DNA of 20,018 bases from a virus: positions 1 to 20,018 of IMG/VR virus record IMGVR_UViG_3300009507_000179. One strand, 5' to 3'. Below the pieces are notes generated by a model. That model was not told the DNA's origin. It made no database searches and was given only the letters and a program-made list of their open reading frames with translations. Positions 6,159 through 15,263 of this stretch are shown in pieces; within the stretch, counting starts at the first letter, position 1, and every line of letters begins with the position of its first letter. A program made the position numbers and the translations under genes.

Positions 6159-8051
6159 ATGGCTGATCCGTATGAAGAATATGTCAAAGCGAACCTTATG
6201 CCAGATCGTCGTCTTCCGACTGGAAGATCAAGGCTGGGCGGTTTGTTTGGCCTAGAAGGCCCTGAGTCTGGTGGACAGTTTGTCAATATACCCGGCGCAG
6301 ATTTTAGCCCCGGTGGTCGTATGAGCGCAATAACGAGTCTAGCAGACAATCTTGACTTTAAAGATCAAGACGCGCTGGAAGATTATTTGCAGAATATCTC
6401 TGAGAGAACTATAGGCCGCGATGGCATTTCTATTCCAGTTGAAGGTCTAGTTCCAGACGAGGGTGGCCTCTTCGGAGGAGGAGGGCCTTTCATGTCTGAA
6501 GGCGGTCAACAGTTTGGTTTTGGCGATGGAGACCTCGCGGGAATGGCGAAAGCGTATGTTGATATTAAGGATAATGCTTTTAAAACAGACCCAATTGGAA
6601 ACTTGACCAAAAAAGCCTTGCTCGAAAAACAAGCTGCTGAAAGCGGATTAGCCGCACGAGAAATGCTTGGAGAAGAAGCTGCGTTTGAAAGCTCAGGTCA
6701 TGATGACATTGGCGCTATACTAGCATCTCTTGATAACACAGAAAATGTTCAAAATGTGACTGAAGGAGAAGTAGATTCCATTGATAACCTGATAGCTCAA
6801 TCCGCGACTTCGGCGGCAGATAAAGATCGTATTGCTACGAACGCTGCTGACGAAGACACGGTTATGGATCAGTCTCTCACACCAGCAGCCATTGAAGGTG
6901 GATTCCAGGCTGGAATGAAGGACTACATGGAAGCTGCTGGAATTGACGACACTCCCAAAAAAGGCGAGACAAAAGAAGAGGCCCTTGAGCGTTACAAGAA
7001 AGAATTTGAAGAGGCTACCGGAATAGACGCAAGTGGCAAAGTCGATAAAAGCCGTGCGCTTATGGCCTTCGGACTTGCGTTGATGCAAAATAAAGCTGGC
7101 AAAAAATTTAATGTCGGGAAAATGCTACAATCTGTAGCCTCTGCTGGGGAATCAGCATTACCTGCCTTGGATAAGGCGACAGCAGACGCTAAAGCTGCGC
7201 AACTGGCGGCAGGTAAATATGCCCTAAATCAAAGACAGTCTGATGTAGATGCCCAATTGGCTTCAGCCGCAGCCGCGAAAGACTTCAAGCAGAAGGTTTA
7301 TTTGAAGTGGTACGAATCGTCTTTGAAACGAGAAGAAGAAAACCTAAAATCTCAATCGGAATTGCTAAAGATTGCCGCAGAAAACGGTGGTTCTGACTAC
7401 GATAAGAAACACGAGTTTGAGTTTACTACAGGGCAAACTAGCTTCAAAATACCTGTTGTTTACGATAAGAACAGTCCATCTGCGGGTATTATATTAAAGC
7501 CGGACCCTTACGCCAGAAAGTACATTGACGGTCGTGCTGGGGTGGAGGACGCTCTAGATGTGATTTCAACAATGCGCAGTGCGTCTCAGGCAATAGCTGA
7601 TGGCGGCGGTACTACTAAGTTTGCATATGACCGAATGAATTCCATAGCGAAAGCACTGTTTCCAGATTTGAATACAGGAGAACCATCTTCTGAGCAAGAA
7701 TATGCTCAAGGTGTTAACCTAATTATGGGTAGGTTTAAAAGGTTTTTAACGCAAGAAACGGGCAACGGTATTTCCAACAGAGATGTGGAGATATGGGAAA
7801 ACGAAATTATGAAGAAGCCCGGTTGGTTCACGAACTTTGACGAAACTGCTTCGGCTTTAGACCAGTTGGAAGATATTTTCAGATCAAAGTTAGACGAATT
7901 TGACGCTGGAATTGACTTCATATACGATGAGGCTAACTTGCTTCCCGGTGATTATGAAAAACTTGTAGAAAAATACGGTGACGTATCGCAGATACAAGGT
8001 AACACTGGAAAGTTAGTCTTCAAAGATGGAAGAATAGTTAGGTCGCAATAA
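6159..8051 (+). CDS. Large putative virion protein, unknown
   Basis: This 630-aa protein has its ribosome binding site AGAGG at 6148-6152. The N-terminal third is Gly/Asp-rich and of low predicted order. A central segment (RALMAFGLALMQNKAGKKF, then an Ala-rich amphipathic region and KREEENLKSQSELLKIA) suggests a helical bundle or coiled coil. The C-terminal third is mixed alpha/beta and includes RFKRFLTQETGNGISNRDVE and a KLDEFDAGIDF helix. I recognise the pattern from phage proteins placed just before a large membrane-active internal protein, but know no biochemical function. The stop overlaps the next start by one base, so the two proteins are likely made in matched amounts. Confidence 0.6.
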   Translation: MADPYEEYVKANLMPDRRLPTGRSRLGGLFGLEGPESGGQFVNIPGADFSPGGRMSAITSLADNLDFKDQDALEDYLQNISERTIGRDGISIPVEGLVPDEGGLFGGGGPFMSEGGQQFGFGDGDLAGMAKAYVDIKDNAFKTDPIGNLTKKALLEKQAAESGLAAREMLGEEAAFESSGHDDIGAILASLDNTENVQNVTEGEVDSIDNLIAQSATSAADKDRIATNAADEDTVMDQSLTPAAIEGGFQAGMKDYMEAAGIDDTPKKGETKEEALERYKKEFEEATGIDASGKVDKSRALMAFGLALMQNKAGKKFNVGKMLQSVASAGESALPALDKATADAKAAQLAAGKYALNQRQSDVDAQLASAAAAKDFKQKVYLKWYESSLKREEENLKSQSELLKIAAENGGSDYDKKHEFEFTTGQTSFKIPVVYDKNSPSAGIILKPDPYARKYIDGRAGVEDALDVISTMRSASQAIADGGGTTKFAYDRMNSIAKALFPDLNTGEPSSEQEYAQGVNLIMGRFKRFLTQETGNGISNRDVEIWENEIMKKPGWFTNFDETASALDQLEDIFRSKLDEFDAGIDFIYDEANLLPGDYEKLVEKYGDVSQIQGNTGKLVFKDGRIVRSQ

Positions 8052-10927
8052 TGCCAGATATTCAAGTCGAAATCAGACCCGGTGAGTTTGCTCCCTTCGA
8101 GATAAGTGGTGAAAAGCCAAACTACGTCGAAATGAAGCAAATAGAAAAACTTGTCAGGGAAATGGAAAGGTCAGACCGCAGCGTTTCTTTCGATTCTGGC
8201 TCTGAAAGTGAGTTTGATACAGAAACTGGCATTACGAACAACAAGCTAAGGCGACAACTTGCTGGCGCTGAAACTTCTGGAGAAGAAGAAAAAGTCCTTG
8301 GTCGCTTTGGTTTTAGGGAAGGTGACTATACTAGAGATAATCGTGGAAATTTAGCGATTACTCCAAAAGGCGCACTTTTGCTCGGCATAGACACTGACAA
8401 GCCTATCATGATTGACGAAAGTGGATTTAGTCTGTCTGACTTGCAAGACTTTGTGGGCGCTGCGGGTGAGGAAATAGTAGGTGGTATCGGTGGTGCAATA
8501 GCTGGACAAGCCGCGATTCCTATTCCAATTTTAGGTGCTGCAATAGGTGCTGCAATAGGTGCTGGAGGCGGCAAGCTCTTTGAAGAGGGTGTAGAAACCT
8601 TACGGGGGACCCAAGAGCAAACACTTGGTGAGGTTGGTAAAGATGCGCTAATCGAAGCCGCTATCGCAGGGGCTGGTGAAGGTATATTTGGTCTAGTTGG
8701 TAAGTCTTTTGGAGTGGTTACAGGTCGTGGAAGAGTAGGAAGTAAGCTCGCCCCTGAAACTCAAAAAGAAGTCGCAGAGGCTATAGACTCAAATTATAAA
8801 CCGTCACTATCGGCTATGGGCGCAAATTCTATTGTAGCCAGACAACAGGCTATGTCTGAAAAAGCTCTTGGTACGTCAGCGCGGTTACGACAAAATCACG
8901 AACAAATCATGCAGGACTTGGGAAAGCTGCGTGCTTATGGCGCTGATGGCGGTGTTGACATTGATGCTACGGCTGCAATCTTAACGAATGCTGTGGAATC
9001 AGGAGATACTGCTCTCTTGCAGGCAGAAAAAAGCACAATGACTAACTTGATTAAGCACATGGATGAAATTGCTGTTCAGATAGGTAAGGCCGCGAATAAG
9101 GACGAGTTGTTAAATGCTGACATACAAAACGCTTTTGTTGGCGCATATAAGGCTTTTGATGACAAGGTAAAAGAAAAGTTTGCTAACCTTGAAAACCTCA
9201 CAAATAGTGCTGTTGGAGATACTGCGCTTTTCAACACTCGCGGATTGAAAGCTGACGCCAAATTGGAGCTTGATAGACTGGTAGCGGCTGGATCAGGAAA
9301 TCTTGGGAAGTCGCGTGATGCGGTAAAGGAGCTTATGCAATTACCTGATGACGCATCTTTTACTCAAGTTTATAAAGCTAGAAAAACTTTAAATGACACT
9401 TGGATGGGTAATTACGGTTCTGACAGTGTGGAACTTATGAAAGATAAATTTCTTAGTAAGTTAGATGACTTCATATCGCCACAGTCGGTTAATAACGCCA
9501 TGAGGAGAAAGGCGGCTATTGATCTAACAGACGCAGATAAAAAACTATTTAAAGATGTCGCGGCTGAAATACCAAAATTGCGTAGTTTCTTTAAACAGGG
9601 AATGGATAGTTTTGAAAAAGTGTCGTCTGCTGCTAGTTTAAAAAGCCTAAACTCAGCCGTAAAAGGTGGGAAAGAACTTAATCCATCACAAGCGTTTAAG
9701 AATTTAATTCGTCAAGACAACCCAAAATTGCTAAAAGATGCTCGTAAAGTTTTAGGTGATAAGGTTTACGATCCCTTGCGCGAACGAGCCGCTGGTGAAT
9801 GGCTTCGCAGGGCTATGCGAGAATCTGGATCGACTTTAGATTCTACTAAAAAGTTTAGTGGCAGCAAGTTAAAGGAAAAAATAGACTCTTTAGGTGGAAC
9901 AGCCGATGAATTGTTCGGCTCTAAAATATCTGAAGTTCGAAAGCTCGCAGACCAAATGGACTCTTTGTCTTTAACTCGCGTAGATCAAAGCGTTATAGAT
10001 GATTATTTAAATGCAGGTGGAAATGAAACTGGCGTTGATTTGCTTCGTAATATTAAAGACGCGATGCAGGAAAAGGCTCAGTTTGACAAAGCAGCTATTG
10101 CTAGGAAACTTCGCGCTGGGTCATTAATGCCAGAAGAAGCGGCAGATTTATTAGCAAGTCCATCTGTGAAAGGTAATGACATTACTAAATTGTCAAAGTT
10201 TTTTCAAAACAAGCCAGATGAACTAGCCGAACTACAGTCATACTACATGCAAAATCTAATTGGAGATTTCGAGCATACATTTATGACAGACAAAAAAGCA
10301 TTTAGAATTTTATCTGACCGCTTACTAAAAGCTGAAAAGTCTGGCAAATTAAGAGCTTTATTTCCTGAAGCCGAAGCTGATTCTATAGCACTATTCGGAA
10401 GAAACATGAAAGTTTTAGGGTCATCGGCTGAAGGCGGTGATCTTGTTGCCGCGAACATTGCAGCCAATCCATTAGAAAATATAGGAACACTTGCTCGGCT
10501 TAGTATGGTCGGAAGATTTCTATCAACTGGGCCATTCTATACATCTTTTGCGGCTAGGTACGGAAAAGAAGCAGCAAAAGAAAAAACTAAAGCTGGCAAA
10601 ATGCAAGTATTTTTAAAAGTTTTGAATGATACTTCTGCGTCTTTTGCCAAACAACAAGGCACTAGAGAGATTGTAGATACTTATAGCTCAATGAAATCAG
10701 GAGCTTCTGAAATAGCAAATGATTTTAAAAATCAACTTCAATCTAATCGAATGTCCCCGGCAGCACCTCGTGTAAACCGAACAAGTGTTCCGGTTCCAAG
10801 TGTTGGACCAGTTTTTGAAATGCCTTCTGTAGCAGTCGAGAATCAAACACTTAGAGAAAGAGCGCGAGAAAACCCAGCCGTGGCCTCGACACTACTAGGT
10901 GGCTTGAGTAACGCTGGTTTACTCTAG
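8051..10927 (+). CDS. Giant internal virion/ejection-type protein with glycine-zipper segment
   Basis: This 958-aa protein begins MPDIQVEIRPGEFAPFEISG. At about residues 137-182 there is a Gly/Ala/Ile-rich hydrophobic region with GxxxG spacing, including a repeated GAAI unit, followed by a second hydrophobic patch. Such glycine-zipper segments occur in phage ejection proteins that insert into the host envelope. The rest is long, Lys/Leu/Asp-rich and helical with no catalytic motif that I can see. Being the last and largest gene of the virion run fits a DNA-ejection conduit or core protein. Its TAG stop lies in the palindrome CTAG (10924-10927), which also supplies the stop of the opposing minus-strand gene, giving a 4-bp tail-to-tail overlap. 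Confidence 0.65.
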   Translation: MPDIQVEIRPGEFAPFEISGEKPNYVEMKQIEKLVREMERSDRSVSFDSGSESEFDTETGITNNKLRRQLAGAETSGEEEKVLGRFGFREGDYTRDNRGNLAITPKGALLLGIDTDKPIMIDESGFSLSDLQDFVGAAGEEIVGGIGGAIAGQAAIPIPILGAAIGAAIGAGGGKLFEEGVETLRGTQEQTLGEVGKDALIEAAIAGAGEGIFGLVGKSFGVVTGRGRVGSKLAPETQKEVAEAIDSNYKPSLSAMGANSIVARQQAMSEKALGTSARLRQNHEQIMQDLGKLRAYGADGGVDIDATAAILTNAVESGDTALLQAEKSTMTNLIKHMDEIAVQIGKAANKDELLNADIQNAFVGAYKAFDDKVKEKFANLENLTNSAVGDTALFNTRGLKADAKLELDRLVAAGSGNLGKSRDAVKELMQLPDDASFTQVYKARKTLNDTWMGNYGSDSVELMKDKFLSKLDDFISPQSVNNAMRRKAAIDLTDADKKLFKDVAAEIPKLRSFFKQGMDSFEKVSSAASLKSLNSAVKGGKELNPSQAFKNLIRQDNPKLLKDARKVLGDKVYDPLRERAAGEWLRRAMRESGSTLDSTKKFSGSKLKEKIDSLGGTADELFGSKISEVRKLADQMDSLSLTRVDQSVIDDYLNAGGNETGVDLLRNIKDAMQEKAQFDKAAIARKLRAGSLMPEEAADLLASPSVKGNDITKLSKFFQNKPDELAELQSYYMQNLIGDFEHTFMTDKKAFRILSDRLLKAEKSGKLRALFPEAEADSIALFGRNMKVLGSSAEGGDLVAANIAANPLENIGTLARLSMVGRFLSTGPFYTSFAARYGKEAAKEKTKAGKMQVFLKVLNDTSASFAKQQGTREIVDTYSSMKSGASEIANDFKNQLQSNRMSPAAPRVNRTSVPVPSVGPVFEMPSVAVENQTLRERARENPAVASTLLGGLSNAGLL
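8533..8564 (+). repeat. Short in-frame tandem repeat (12 bp, about 2.7 copies)
   Basis: The unit AGGTGCTGCAAT starts at 8533, 8545 and 8557, the last copy being partial. It encodes successive Gly-Ala-Ala-Ile units in the glycine-zipper region of the 958-aa protein. The copies are identical at DNA level, suggesting recent slippage or maintenance of the GxxxG pattern. Because the unit is a multiple of 3, copy-number change would lengthen or shorten the hydrophobic helix without a frameshift. Confidence 0.8.
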
Positions 10928-11595: not shown

Positions 11596-11994
11596 ATGAA
11601 CAGTCGTGAGCTATTCGAGCGTCGAGACGAACTCAAGCATGTCATCAGTGAGATGCGCCTTGAACTCAAAGACGTTGAAGAACAACTCTCAGATACATTT
11701 CTACCTGTAGCAAAAGACGTGCTGCGCTCCAACGGTAAAGACTTCGGCACTGCCCAAATCACAGAGGGCAACCAAAGGCTCAAGGTAACTGTTGGCAAGA
11801 AAGTATCATGGGATCAAGACATGTTGCGTGACAAGTTGAACGCTATGTCTCCAGAAGATGCACATCACTATGGAAAGCTGACGTTTGCCGTAGAAGAGCG
11901 CAAATTCACAGCCGCACCTCCATCTATCAGAAGTGAGCTTGAAGAGTGCCGCACAGTAGAGACAGGCCGCGTTACAGTCGAGGAGGTAGAATAA
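11596..11994 (+). CDS. Small coiled-coil protein of the recombination operon, unknown
   Basis: This 132-aa protein starts at ATG 11596 behind AAAGGA. Earlier in-frame starts would overlap the previous gene and the promoter. The first ~45 residues are a charged heptad-like helix (ELFERRDELKHVISEMRLEL) likely to form a coiled coil. The rest is mixed alpha/beta with RLKVTVGKKVSWDQDML and a C-terminal acidic tail. I recognise it only as a type of small protein that often precedes Sak4-like genes in phages; its function is unknown to me. The stop overlaps the next start (TAATG), so it may be a partner or loading factor of the ATPase. That is inference. Confidence 0.7.
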   Translation: MNSRELFERRDELKHVISEMRLELKDVEEQLSDTFLPVAKDVLRSNGKDFGTAQITEGNQRLKVTVGKKVSWDQDMLRDKLNAMSPEDAHHYGKLTFAVEERKFTAAPPSIRSELEECRTVETGRVTVEEVE

Positions 11995-12857
11995 TGGCTT
12001 TGCAAATTATCACAGCAGATCAGCGTTTAGCTGAGAAAAAGGGCCACAAGATTGTGGTGTGTGGATCAAGCGGTGTGGGTAAAACCACACTGGCTCGCAC
12101 GCTCAATCCAGCAACTACCTTGTTTATGGACTTGGAAGCTGGCGATGCGGCTATCGAGGGGCATCCTATCGACGTTGTGCGTCCTCGCACATGGGTAGAA
12201 TGTCGTGACCTTGCGTGCTTCTTGGGCGGTGCAAACCCATCCTTATCAGAAGACCAGCCATATGGTCAGTCGCACTACGACTATGTGGCGCAGATGTATG
12301 GCGACTCCTCAGACGTGTGGCAGAAGTACGATACGCTGTTTGTGGACTCAATCACCGTAGCAGGGCGTTTGTGCTTCCAGTGGTGCTTACAACAGCCTGA
12401 AGCGCGCTCTGAGCGTTCTGGCAAGGTTGATACGCGCGCTGTCTACGGAATGCACGGTCGTGAGATGATGTCGTGGCTTACACACATCCAGCACATCCGC
12501 GCAAAGAACGTGATCTTTGTCGGCATCTTGGATGAAGTCACAGACGATTACGGTCGCAAGCAATACAACATGCAGATCGAAGGCGCAAAGACTGGTCGTG
12601 AATTGCCGGGAATTGTGGACGAAGTTATCACAATGGCAGTTCTCTCAGGAGATCATGGTCAGTATCGCGCCTTTGTATGTCAGCCGCTAAACGAATGGGG
12701 CTACCCAGCCAAGGACCGTTCTGGGCGTCTTGACGTATTAGAAGAGCCGCATCTTGGCAAGCTGATTGAAAAGATGAATAGTGGCTCACCATTAACCGAC
12801 AACGATCTTACGTTTGTCGATCCTACAACTCAAACTTCTAGCGAAGGAGAAGCATAA
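11994..12857 (+). CDS. Sak4-like RecA-fold ATPase (single-strand annealing recombinase type)
   Basis: This 287-aa protein has Walker A GSSGVGKTT at residues 24-32 and Walker B YDTLFVDS ending at D118. The later elements NVIFVGILDEV and GRELPGIVDEVI fit the AAA_24/Sak4 group of phage recombination ATPases, which bind ssDNA and promote annealing with a partner SSB. The start at 11994 is set by the TAATG overlap; earlier in-frame codons lie in the previous gene. The next gene is the SSB-like protein expected as the partner, again with a one-base overlap. Confidence in the ATPase fold is high; the precise Sak4 assignment is by motif and neighbourhood. Confidence 0.85.
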   Translation: MALQIITADQRLAEKKGHKIVVCGSSGVGKTTLARTLNPATTLFMDLEAGDAAIEGHPIDVVRPRTWVECRDLACFLGGANPSLSEDQPYGQSHYDYVAQMYGDSSDVWQKYDTLFVDSITVAGRLCFQWCLQQPEARSERSGKVDTRAVYGMHGREMMSWLTHIQHIRAKNVIFVGILDEVTDDYGRKQYNMQIEGAKTGRELPGIVDEVITMAVLSGDHGQYRAFVCQPLNEWGYPAKDRSGRLDVLEEPHLGKLIEKMNSGSPLTDNDLTFVDPTTQTSSEGEA

Positions 12858-13471
12858 TGCTTAATTTTAATAATGTACCCGCAGACGAAAACCCAAAGAA
12901 CCAAGAGTTTTCTTTAATCCCTAGTGGCTCTGTGGTTCGCGCAGTAGTTCTTGTTCAACAGGGCGACATCGAATTGCCTGAATTCGGTCAAGGCGCATGG
13001 TTCAAGAAATCACAAAGCACATCCGCTAAGTGGATGAACCTTGAGTTCACAATCATCGGTGGCGAGTATGACCGCCGCAAGTTCTGGCACAGCGTATTCT
13101 TAGATGGCGACAAGCTAGGTCAAAGCGGTATGCCTCATGCTAAGGAGATTGGTCTGCGCACGTTGAAGTCTATTGTCGAAAGCGCACGAAACATCAGCCC
13201 AGCGGACGTATCTCCACAAGCGCAACAAAACCGCAACATCAGCAGTATGATGGACTTGAGCGGTATGGAGATTTGCGCTAAGGTTGGCATTAAGAAGGGC
13301 ACCAACGGTTATAAAGACAATAACCAACTCATGGCTGCTCTCACGCCAGATAACTCAGAATTTTTGCCCCAAGGCAGTATTCCAATGCAACAAACTACAA
13401 TTGCTCCGAATGCTGCACCACAAGCTCCTGCACAAAATAGCGGTGCAGTTCCTTCTTGGGCGCAAAGGTAA
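12857..13471 (+). CDS. DUF669-like ssDNA-binding protein
   Basis: This 204-aa protein begins MLNFNNVPADENPKNQEFSL, and its first ~140 residues carry beta-strand-rich segments (VVRAVVLVQQGD, WMNLEFTIIGGEYDRRKFWHSVFL) in the order of DUF669-like proteins, which are OB-fold-like phage ssDNA-binding proteins. The last ~45 residues are a Gln/Ala/Pro-rich flexible linker ending VPSWAQR, a short aromatic tail that may recruit partners, as SSB tails do. AAGGAG precedes the start. Position immediately after a Sak4-like ATPase supports the call. The RNA structure in the downstream gap may relate to this protein. Confidence 0.75.
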   Translation: MLNFNNVPADENPKNQEFSLIPSGSVVRAVVLVQQGDIELPEFGQGAWFKKSQSTSAKWMNLEFTIIGGEYDRRKFWHSVFLDGDKLGQSGMPHAKEIGLRTLKSIVESARNISPADVSPQAQQNRNISSMMDLSGMEICAKVGIKKGTNGYKDNNQLMAALTPDNSEFLPQGSIPMQQTTIAPNAAPQAPAQNSGAVPSWAQR

Positions 13472-13472
13472 T

Positions 13473-13561
13473 CTAGCGGCAGGGCCATTCCGCGCCTGCT
13501 AGACCACGGATAGGGGGGCCGTGGGCCGCGAACCCCCCAACTTACTATTCTAGCAAATAGG
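13473..13561 (+). promoter_or_regulatory. Structured RNA leader between SSB-like and helicase genes, with H-type pseudoknot
   Basis: The 97-bp gap is much richer in G+C than its flanks and can form three elements. First, a bulged hairpin pairs 13473-13475 and 13479-13483 with 13495-13502. Second, a pseudoknot at 13504-13538 has stem 1 CCACGG (13504-13509) with CCGTGG (13519-13524), and stem 2 G6 (13513-13518) with C6 (13533-13538). Its loops are 3, 0 and 8 nt, an ideal H-type geometry. Third, a small hairpin pairs CTATT (13545-13549) with AATAG (13556-13560), covering part of the ribosome binding region (AGG 13559-13561) of the helicase gene. Control of helicase translation, or of SSB amount, is the likely purpose; the ligand is unknown. 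Confidence 0.6.
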
Positions 13562-13568
13562 TATAATC

Positions 13569-15263
13569 ATGTTACTCAGACCCTACCAAGAGGTAGCCGT
13601 GTCTGACGCTTGCACAGCGTTAGACAAACACAAAAACACACTCGTAGTCGCGCCCACAGGTGCAGGCAAAACGATCATGTTATCCGCCCTTGTTGGCAAG
13701 AGATACAAAAAGGGAAAGCGCGTCCTAATCATCCAGCATAGGGATGAGCTAGTTGAGCAGAACAAAGAGAAGTTCGAGCGCGTTAACCCATACATCACAA
13801 CAAGCATTGTGAACGGCACAGTAAAGCATTGGGACGGCGAAGCTGTATTCTCAATGGTTCAAACAATGTCGCGAGATAATAACCTGCGCAAACGCCCGAA
13901 GTTTGACATGGTAGTTATCGACGAAAGCCACCACGCCGCCGCAGACACCTATCGCAAGGTGATCGACGCTGTGATCGAAGACAACGAAGACGCAGAGATT
14001 GTAGGCTTTACAGCCACTCCAAACCGGGGGGATGGCAAGGGGCTGCGCGATGTATTCAACAACTGCGCACACCAGATCGAAATGGCGACACTAATCCGCG
14101 AAGGATTTCTTGTGCGCCCTACATCTTATGTCGTTGATCTGGGCGTTAATGACCAACTGGATAATGTGACGCGCCGTGGCAAAGAGTACGACATGGAAGA
14201 GGTCGCAGCGATTATGGATCGCCAAGTCATCAACGAACGTATCGTGGATGAGTGGATGGAAAAAGCTGGTGATCGCAAGACAGTCGTGTTCTGCTCAACC
14301 GTATTACATGCCGAACATGTTTGCGAAGCCTATCTTCGCGCTGGCATCAAAGCCAATTTTGTTACGGGAGAAACGCCCAAGGACAAACGTGCAGAAATGC
14401 TGCATGATCTTGAGTTTGGTGATCTGCAAGTTATCGTCAACGTAATGGTGCTGACAGAGGGATTTGATGCACCTCCAGTCTCATGTGTTGTCTTGACGCG
14501 CCCGTGCTCTCAGAAGGGCACAATGGTGCAGATGATCGGTCGTGGACTGCGCATCGTTGATCCTGAGCTATATCCAAATACCATCAAGACCGATTGCATC
14601 GTCATGGACTTTGGCACATCAATCATCACGCATGGTACGCTGGACGAAACAGCAAACCTAGACGGCGCAGAGAAGCGCGAAGGCGAGGAAGCTCCCACTA
14701 AGGTTTGCCCAGAGTGCGAAAGCGAAGTCGCAACAAATACGCGCGTCTGCCCAATCTGTGAACACGAGTTCGAGCAAAAGCAAAAAGACGAATTGCACAA
14801 CTTCGTCATGACCGAATACGATCTCATGGAAATGTCACCATTCATGTGGATTGATCCATATGGTCTTGGCACTGCAATGATGGCTACAGGCTTCCAAGGG
14901 TTCACTATGGTGGCGAAGGTCGGAACATACTGGATGGCGATTGTAAAGCCGCAGTCAGGGCGCGTTAGAGTGGTATCTATCGGTGAGAAGGTGCAAGCGA
15001 TGGCCGCAGCGGATGATTTCTTGCGCGAGATCGAAGATAGTAGCGCAGCAAACAAGTCAAAGCGGTGGCTTAACCAAGCCGCTACGCCAAAACAAAAAGA
15101 AATTCTGCGCAATAAAGGCGTGCAGATCAGCGAAATGGATTTCTCTTGGACAAAGTACAAAGCTGCATGTTGTTTAGGATACTATTTTAATCGAACACAA
15201 ATTGATAGACTGATTTCAGATAACTGGGAAAGACTAACGGGAGAAGAACATGGAACGATCTGA
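13569..15263 (+). CDS. SF2 DEAD/DEAH-box-type helicase with C-terminal zinc finger
   Basis: This 564-aa protein has a complete superfamily 2 motif set: Q7 upstream, motif I APTGAGKT (28-35), motif II DESH (118-121), motif III TATP (148-151), motif V TEGFDAP and motif VI QMIGRGLR (321-328). Behind the helicase core is a four-cysteine zinc finger (C380, C383, C394, C397), then a ~160-aa C-terminal domain with an ATPKQKEILRNKG segment. It resembles phage SSL2/RadD-like helicases that unwind or remodel branched DNA during replication and recombination. The ribosome binding site is weak (AGG, 7-nt spacing) and sits in a potential hairpin, consistent with translational control. The stop lies 14 bp inside the next gene. 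Confidence 0.9.
   Translation: MLLRPYQEVAVSDACTALDKHKNTLVVAPTGAGKTIMLSALVGKRYKKGKRVLIIQHRDELVEQNKEKFERVNPYITTSIVNGTVKHWDGEAVFSMVQTMSRDNNLRKRPKFDMVVIDESHHAAADTYRKVIDAVIEDNEDAEIVGFTATPNRGDGKGLRDVFNNCAHQIEMATLIREGFLVRPTSYVVDLGVNDQLDNVTRRGKEYDMEEVAAIMDRQVINERIVDEWMEKAGDRKTVVFCSTVLHAEHVCEAYLRAGIKANFVTGETPKDKRAEMLHDLEFGDLQVIVNVMVLTEGFDAPPVSCVVLTRPCSQKGTMVQMIGRGLRIVDPELYPNTIKTDCIVMDFGTSIITHGTLDETANLDGAEKREGEEAPTKVCPECESEVATNTRVCPICEHEFEQKQKDELHNFVMTEYDLMEMSPFMWIDPYGLGTAMMATGFQGFTMVAKVGTYWMAIVKPQSGRVRVVSIGEKVQAMAAADDFLREIEDSSAANKSKRWLNQAATPKQKEILRNKGVQISEMDFSWTKYKAACCLGYYFNRTQIDRLISDNWERLTGEEHGTI

Follow-up and report, generated by a model that had tools for sequence, protein, structure and literature searches.

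In the alpha-operon S4 mRNA of E. coli a nested pseudoknot controls ribosome entry, and HDV-like ribozymes display a nested double-pseudoknot strand order in which P1.1 comprises 1-2 bp. Among phages, the gene 32 operator of T4 is a pseudoknot located in the leader of gp32's own gene, and a 2010 review considered the gene 32 pseudoknot of the T4 type to be perhaps the sole viral pseudoknot that takes part in translational autoregulation (PMC3014915). As for relevant ssDNA-binding proteins, PrgE is a filament-forming protein with an OB fold (PMC11137577), and SSBs of the DUF669 type are known to be encoded beside sak4 genes (PMC5928155).

Here we describe a conserved RNA element found between the genes for an SSB-like protein and a helicase in a 20,018-base IMG/VR virus record, the whole of which is referred to as the window. 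All features described below lie on the + strand.

The SSB-like protein and its gene neighbourhood

The gene order at this locus is Sak4-like ATPase, SSB-like protein, RNA and RadD/ResIII-like helicase, with a PDDEXK_14 nuclease gene ahead of the helicase in some phages. The gene for the Sak4-like AAA ATPase or annealase (11946-12857, with an uncertain start codon) matches phrog_124 (E 2.3e-46) and PF13479 AAA_24 (E 3.1e-40). Directly behind it, the ORF of the SSB-like OB-fold protein (DUF669/PrgE-like; 12857-13471) belongs to phrog_2300 and closes with a TAA stop codon at 13469-13471. The RadD/ResIII-like DEAD-box helicase gene (13569-15263) is recognized by PF04851, PF00271 and phrog_16 and shows a zinc-ribbon match; its similarity to the RadD/YejH model NF053632 (E 3.6e-55) falls below the cutoff of that model.

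The SSB-like protein is not accounted for by any Pfam or NCBIfam model. The window protein lacks any Pfam match at E<=1, the Pfam DUF669 model is matched by none of 47 relatives, and a profile search of PDB sequences yielded triosephosphate isomerase and other spurious matches only. An AlphaFold2 model built from the 47 relatives (pLDDT 77, pTM 0.69) retrieved PrgE in Foldseek (8s4s/8s4t, E 8.9e-6 to 7.6e-5), together with models of phage DUF669 proteins. The SSB assignment made from the sequence-only reading thus holds, since predicted structure and synteny agree.

Architecture and covariation of the RNA element

The sequence-only reading placed an H-type pseudoknot at 13504-13538, and these coordinates are correct. 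Stem 1 joins CCACGG (13504-13509) to CCGTGG (13519-13524) and stem 2 joins six G (13513-13518) to six C (13533-13538), with a first loop ATA (13510-13512), a junction of 0 nt between the stems and a third loop GCCGCGAA (13525-13532). As a feature of a single sequence, this pseudoknot could be explained by chance. Dinucleotide shuffling produced perfect 6/6 H-type pseudoknots with comparable loops at a rate of 0.48 per shuffled window (29 in 60 shuffles, counting both strands), and two are present in the real window, at 13504 and 9731. The one starting at 9731, with loops of 6, 1 and 9, lies on the + strand within the coding region 8051-10927 and accords with the approximate chance rate. Nested-only MFE folding assigned the element the same stability as its shuffles (z = -0.03); since the fold is pseudoknotted, plain MFE folding does not set it apart from shuffled sequence.

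It is the homologues that show the pseudoknot to be real. The SSB-like and helicase proteins, used as queries, brought together hundreds of related contigs, from which 65 distinct elements were analysed. Stems 1 and 2 are complementary in all 65, and two-sided changes are present in both. G and C runs varying independently, or a second stem devoid of covariation, were looked for among these homologues; no such case appeared and the changes are compensated throughout. The pseudoknot between the SSB-like and helicase genes is therefore genuine.

The comparison further reveals that the pseudoknot forms the centre of a larger element with two additional covarying helices, the long-range helix A and helix B. 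The whole structured element spans 83 nt (13472-13554) and begins 0-3 nt past the SSB stop codon in all versions; a covariance model matches 13472-13561 with 103.7 bits (E 4.6e-32), the window being part of its training set. The simple H-type geometry of the initial description is replaced by five helices with at least two crossing pairings, because most of the supposed third loop belongs to helix A, its GCCGC pairing with GCGGC at 13476-13480.

Helix A (GCGGC 13476-13480 with GCCGC 13525-13529) shows two-sided changes, as GCGGC/GCCGC, GUGGC/GCCAC and GCGAC/GUCGC; its inner three base pairs are kept in 65/65 elements, including one large clade that has lost the outer two. Helix B closes a hairpin (GGGC 13482-13485 with GCCU 13494-13497), is 100% paired and has three two-sided pairs; it occurs as GGGC/GCCU, AGGC/GCCU, GGGU/ACCC and GGAC/GUCU. 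Helix C, which corresponds to stem 1 (13504-13509 with 13519-13524), is likewise 100% paired, with two-sided changes in four of five counted pairs; it occurs as CCACGG/CCGUGG, CCAAGG/CCUUGG, CCUCUG/CAGAGG, CCUCGC/GCGAGG, CCACCG/CGGUGG, CCACGC/GCGUGG, CCACUG/CAGUGG and CCUCGG/CCGAGG. Helix D, the pseudoknot helix equivalent to stem 2 (13513-13518 with 13533-13538), is 100% paired in 65/65 elements under a register rule independent of pairing, either as 5, 6 or 7 G:C pairs (e.g. GGGGGG/CCCCCC) or as AGGGGG/CCCCCU and GGGGAG/CUCCCC. On a quick tree of the SSB protein, helix C changed at least 15 times and helix D at least 5 times, and the changes were always compensated.

Evaluated over 27 distinct sets of stems, the structure with its five helices comprises 26 pairs and 94.7% of the cells are paired. 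Two-sided changes affect 11 pairs, compared with 5.8±1.3 in shuffles (0/500 reach 11), and the covariation score is 0.232 against 0.099. When the structure was slid so that partners were shifted, at most 2 pairs showed two-sided changes. The stem sets were excised before alignment and helix C was found by complementarity, so the shuffle and slide controls are generous for this helix. Across helices B, C and D and the inner part of A there are 33 G·U cells and 0 A·C cells, which identifies the + strand RNA as the constrained molecule. A chance pseudoknot or a DNA-level element would find its argument in the approximately 0.5 such pseudoknots expected per shuffled window, but compensatory changes in four helices and the excess of G·U over A·C reduce this explanation to a negligible probability. 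Helices B, C, A and D are established by comparison of homologous sequences, and that the element is a real conserved RNA is, in our judgement, nearly certain.

Helix E (GCUAGA 13498-13503 with UCUAGC 13549-13554) is of a different nature. Almost all versions retain 4 or more of its pairs, yet it hardly varies, GCUAGA being invariant in 65/65, so its support comes from conservation and not from covariation. Its first pair is lost in about one third of the versions, including the large clade with the reduced helix A. UCUAGC at 13549-13554 constitutes the 3' boundary of the element, UCUAG being kept in nearly all versions while the flanks vary. Pairing of helix E would turn the element into a nested double pseudoknot whose end falls just short of the Shine-Dalgarno (SD) sequence of the helicase gene, AGG at 13559-13561, which lies 4 nt past the helix. 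The small hairpin that had been described over the helicase ribosome binding site (CTATT/AATAG) is not conserved, as it reaches 5 bp in only 23/65 versions. Two other readings of the region were discarded: an intrinsic terminator, as no U-tract or terminator-like site exists at the element, and readthrough of the stop codon into the element, since the frame that follows is not kept from one clade to the next.

The strands of the element follow one another as A, E, C, A' and E', with helix D linking the C loop to the strand that comes after A', an order similar to the nested double pseudoknot seen in HDV-like ribozymes, and a self-cleaving ribozyme placed exactly between two genes could separate the SSB and helicase messages. 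Against this idea, helix D has 6 bp where P1.1 of HDV has 1-2 bp, no catalytic C motif is recognized, helix A is degraded in one clade and four divergent members gave no Rfam ribozyme match at E<=10. We regard a ribozyme as highly improbable.

A second copy of UCUAG is found at the 5' end (13472-13476), where it is present in 59/65 elements and can pair alternatively with 13499-13503. UCUAG thus stands at both ends of the element, and either copy fits the single GCUAGA. The alternative 8-bp helix, UCUAGCGG with CUGCUAGA, is fully paired in 53/65 elements. Nested-only folding, which cannot weigh pseudoknots, gave a mean probability of 0.70 to this 5' hairpin and 0.11 to helix E. Because both UCUAG copies match the same GCUAGA, the arrangement suggests a strand-exchange switch.

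Distribution among phages and the inserted nuclease gene

The RNA lies directly after the SSB stop codon in 462/463 loci that have an SSB-like relative and a 3' flank, although these totals count overlapping loci of one contig repeatedly and distinct elements (65 in the analysed set, more in the 463-locus set) are the safer figure. It is missing only in the isolate AcaML1, where the SSB homologue shows just 34% identity. The carriers are hundreds of phage contigs, mostly marine, and their elements share 71-100% identity with that of the window, usually more than the flanking coding DNA. One copy per record was found in 20/20 records searched, including viral contigs of 54-56 kb.

The SSB-helicase stretch had no nucleotide match among 50,697 phage records. 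At the protein level, phage records yielded only remote homologues of SSB, in Wolbachia WO, Acidithiobacillus AcaML1 and a Megaira phage, and the RNA did not appear downstream of SSB in those of their flanks that were sampled. A pattern scan of genome contigs returned 5 matches, of which 2 were genuine; these two lie in MAG contigs and keep the gene order. They are the only copies found in bacterial genome assemblies, L326 (a 3.2-kb contig of a Thalassolituus MAG) and L327 (a 24.6-kb contig of a Rhodobacteraceae MAG), and have the nuclease-inserted form; they may be host hints or binning contaminants.

No copies were found in other gene contexts, the order always being SSB, RNA, optionally the PDDEXK nuclease, and helicase. 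This single context speaks against a metabolite riboswitch controlling recombination genes, since riboswitches usually precede several different genes; nor did four divergent members give any Rfam riboswitch match at E<=10. Compactness, strong conservation, a pseudoknotted fold of several helices, some of them in competition, and a place beside an SD are features that a riboswitch might show, and even so we find this explanation very unlikely. More generally, no Rfam 15 family reaches its gathering score in the window, and the four divergent members show only chance-level matches at E<=10. An open-access literature search found nothing on this RNA, an absence that the open-access limit makes weak evidence. 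The element represents a structured RNA family, most likely cis-acting, without an Rfam counterpart and previously uncatalogued.

The PDDEXK_14 (PF24579) nuclease gene, of approximately 136 aa, is an optional member of the locus and, where it occurs there, always separates the RNA from the helicase gene. It is carried by L004, L046, L112, L116, L136, L251, L254, L311, L327, L367 and L397; among near-identical phages, L022 is devoid of it and L023 has it. Over the SSB tree the nuclease gene switched between presence and absence at least 10 times, with the RNA retained throughout. The gene behaves as a mobile, possibly homing, gene. In most nuclease-inserted forms the sequence diverges directly after UCUAG(C), which sets the 3' boundary of the RNA at that point; one group also shares the AAAUAGG that follows. 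The 3' end of the element adjoins the SD of whichever gene comes next.

Possible roles of the element and comparison with known systems

In our view the element most likely acts in cis as a gate on translation of the downstream gene, be it the helicase or the inserted PDDEXK_14 nuclease, a proposal with about an even chance of being correct. According to this model, the RNA would fold in the mRNA of the phage replication/recombination operon, in the stretch that runs from the SSB stop codon to the following ribosome binding site. In one state, the 5' strand UCUAGCGG would pair with CUGCUAGA in the 8-bp hairpin, and neither the 3' UCUAG nor the SD region would be engaged. In the other, helices A, B and E would lock the region adjacent to the SD and hinder 30S loading. 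Given the general ribosome footprint, a ribosome terminating at the SSB stop codon would cover about the first nine nucleotides of the element (13472-13480), which correspond to the 5' UCUAG and the 5' strand of helix A, so that SSB translation could set the fold. Either SSB translation or an RNA-binding protein could in this manner determine the state and, with it, the ratio of SSB to helicase or nuclease. The two-state idea derives from the shared sequence and from nested-fold energies, which ignore pseudoknots. A truly bistable switch, in which ribosomes finishing the SSB gene, or SSB itself, choose the winning UCUAG, is put forward tentatively and seems rather doubtful; if true, helicase or nuclease synthesis would be metered against SSB output.

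Several observations go against the translational gate. Helix E shows no covariation and often lacks its first pair, and helix A is shortened in one clade. The SD is near the structure but outside any conserved helix, and the fixed distance between the RNA and the SSB stop codon fits a role in the 3' UTR equally well. The alternatives to the gate are, in falling order, protein binding (by SSB or helicase), 3' UTR stability, a riboswitch and a ribozyme.

With respect to protein binding, a gp32-like operator may be envisaged by analogy, in which the SSB-like protein would bind the pseudoknot, spread over the A/U-rich tract and, once there is more SSB than ssDNA, repress the helicase or nuclease. 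The RNA always adjoins the SSB gene, the tract from helix D to the AUG, which includes the 3' strand of helix E, is 56-80% A+U (mean 68%), and T4 gp32 itself uses a pseudoknot and an A+U-rich tract (PMC3014915). The position differs from that of the gp32 operator, which lies in the leader of its own gene, as the RNA here is 3' of the SSB gene; action on SSB is possible only as a 3' UTR, and autoregulation only from that 3' position. Moreover, the A/U-rich tract is just ~26-35 nt long, UUAA repeats are not conserved, and the helicase gene is as constant a neighbour as the SSB gene. Such an operator therefore appears unlikely.

A processing or stability element in the 3' UTR, whose fold would shield the 3' end of the SSB mRNA or mark a cleavage site so that this mRNA outlives the rest of the operon, would be in line with the constant distance to the SSB stop codon while the downstream gene changes, with a G/C-rich stacked pseudoknot and with the fact that SSB is needed in far larger amounts than the helicase. 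Yet the RNA ends at the SD of the next gene in every version, and a plain roadblock needs no strand-exchange design. We hold this possibility to be just as unlikely as the operator, and favour the translational gate.

Few structured regulatory RNAs are known from phages, and whatever its mode of action, the element contributes a well-supported family with a complex fold. As a compact RNA between genes whose products must differ greatly in amount, it makes the SSB/helicase balance directly testable, and the recurrent PDDEXK_14 gene behind it offers natural experiments on the target of the RNA.

Regarding the known systems, the SSB-like protein of the window shares its predicted fold with PrgE of pCF10 and with phage DUF669 SSBs, which likewise adjoin sak4; it differs from them in matching no Pfam sequence HMM, and its identity to the Wolbachia WO and AcaML1 homologues is approximately 30%. 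Compared with HDV-like ribozymes, the element has a 6-bp helix D and lacks a known catalytic core or a Rfam HDV match. Its sequence, genes and host are other than those of the E. coli alpha-operon S4 pseudoknot, and binding of S4 is not implied. The functional analogue is found in the gene 32 operators of T4, T2 and RB69, where a phage pseudoknot beside an SSB gene is followed by an A/U-rich stretch up to the ribosome binding site (PMC3014915, PMC535899); helices C and D supply the covarying two-stem pseudoknot expected of such an operator. In contrast to these operators, the RNA described here comes after the SSB gene and before the helicase or nuclease gene, and has two more helices that covary as well as another pairing that crosses the first.
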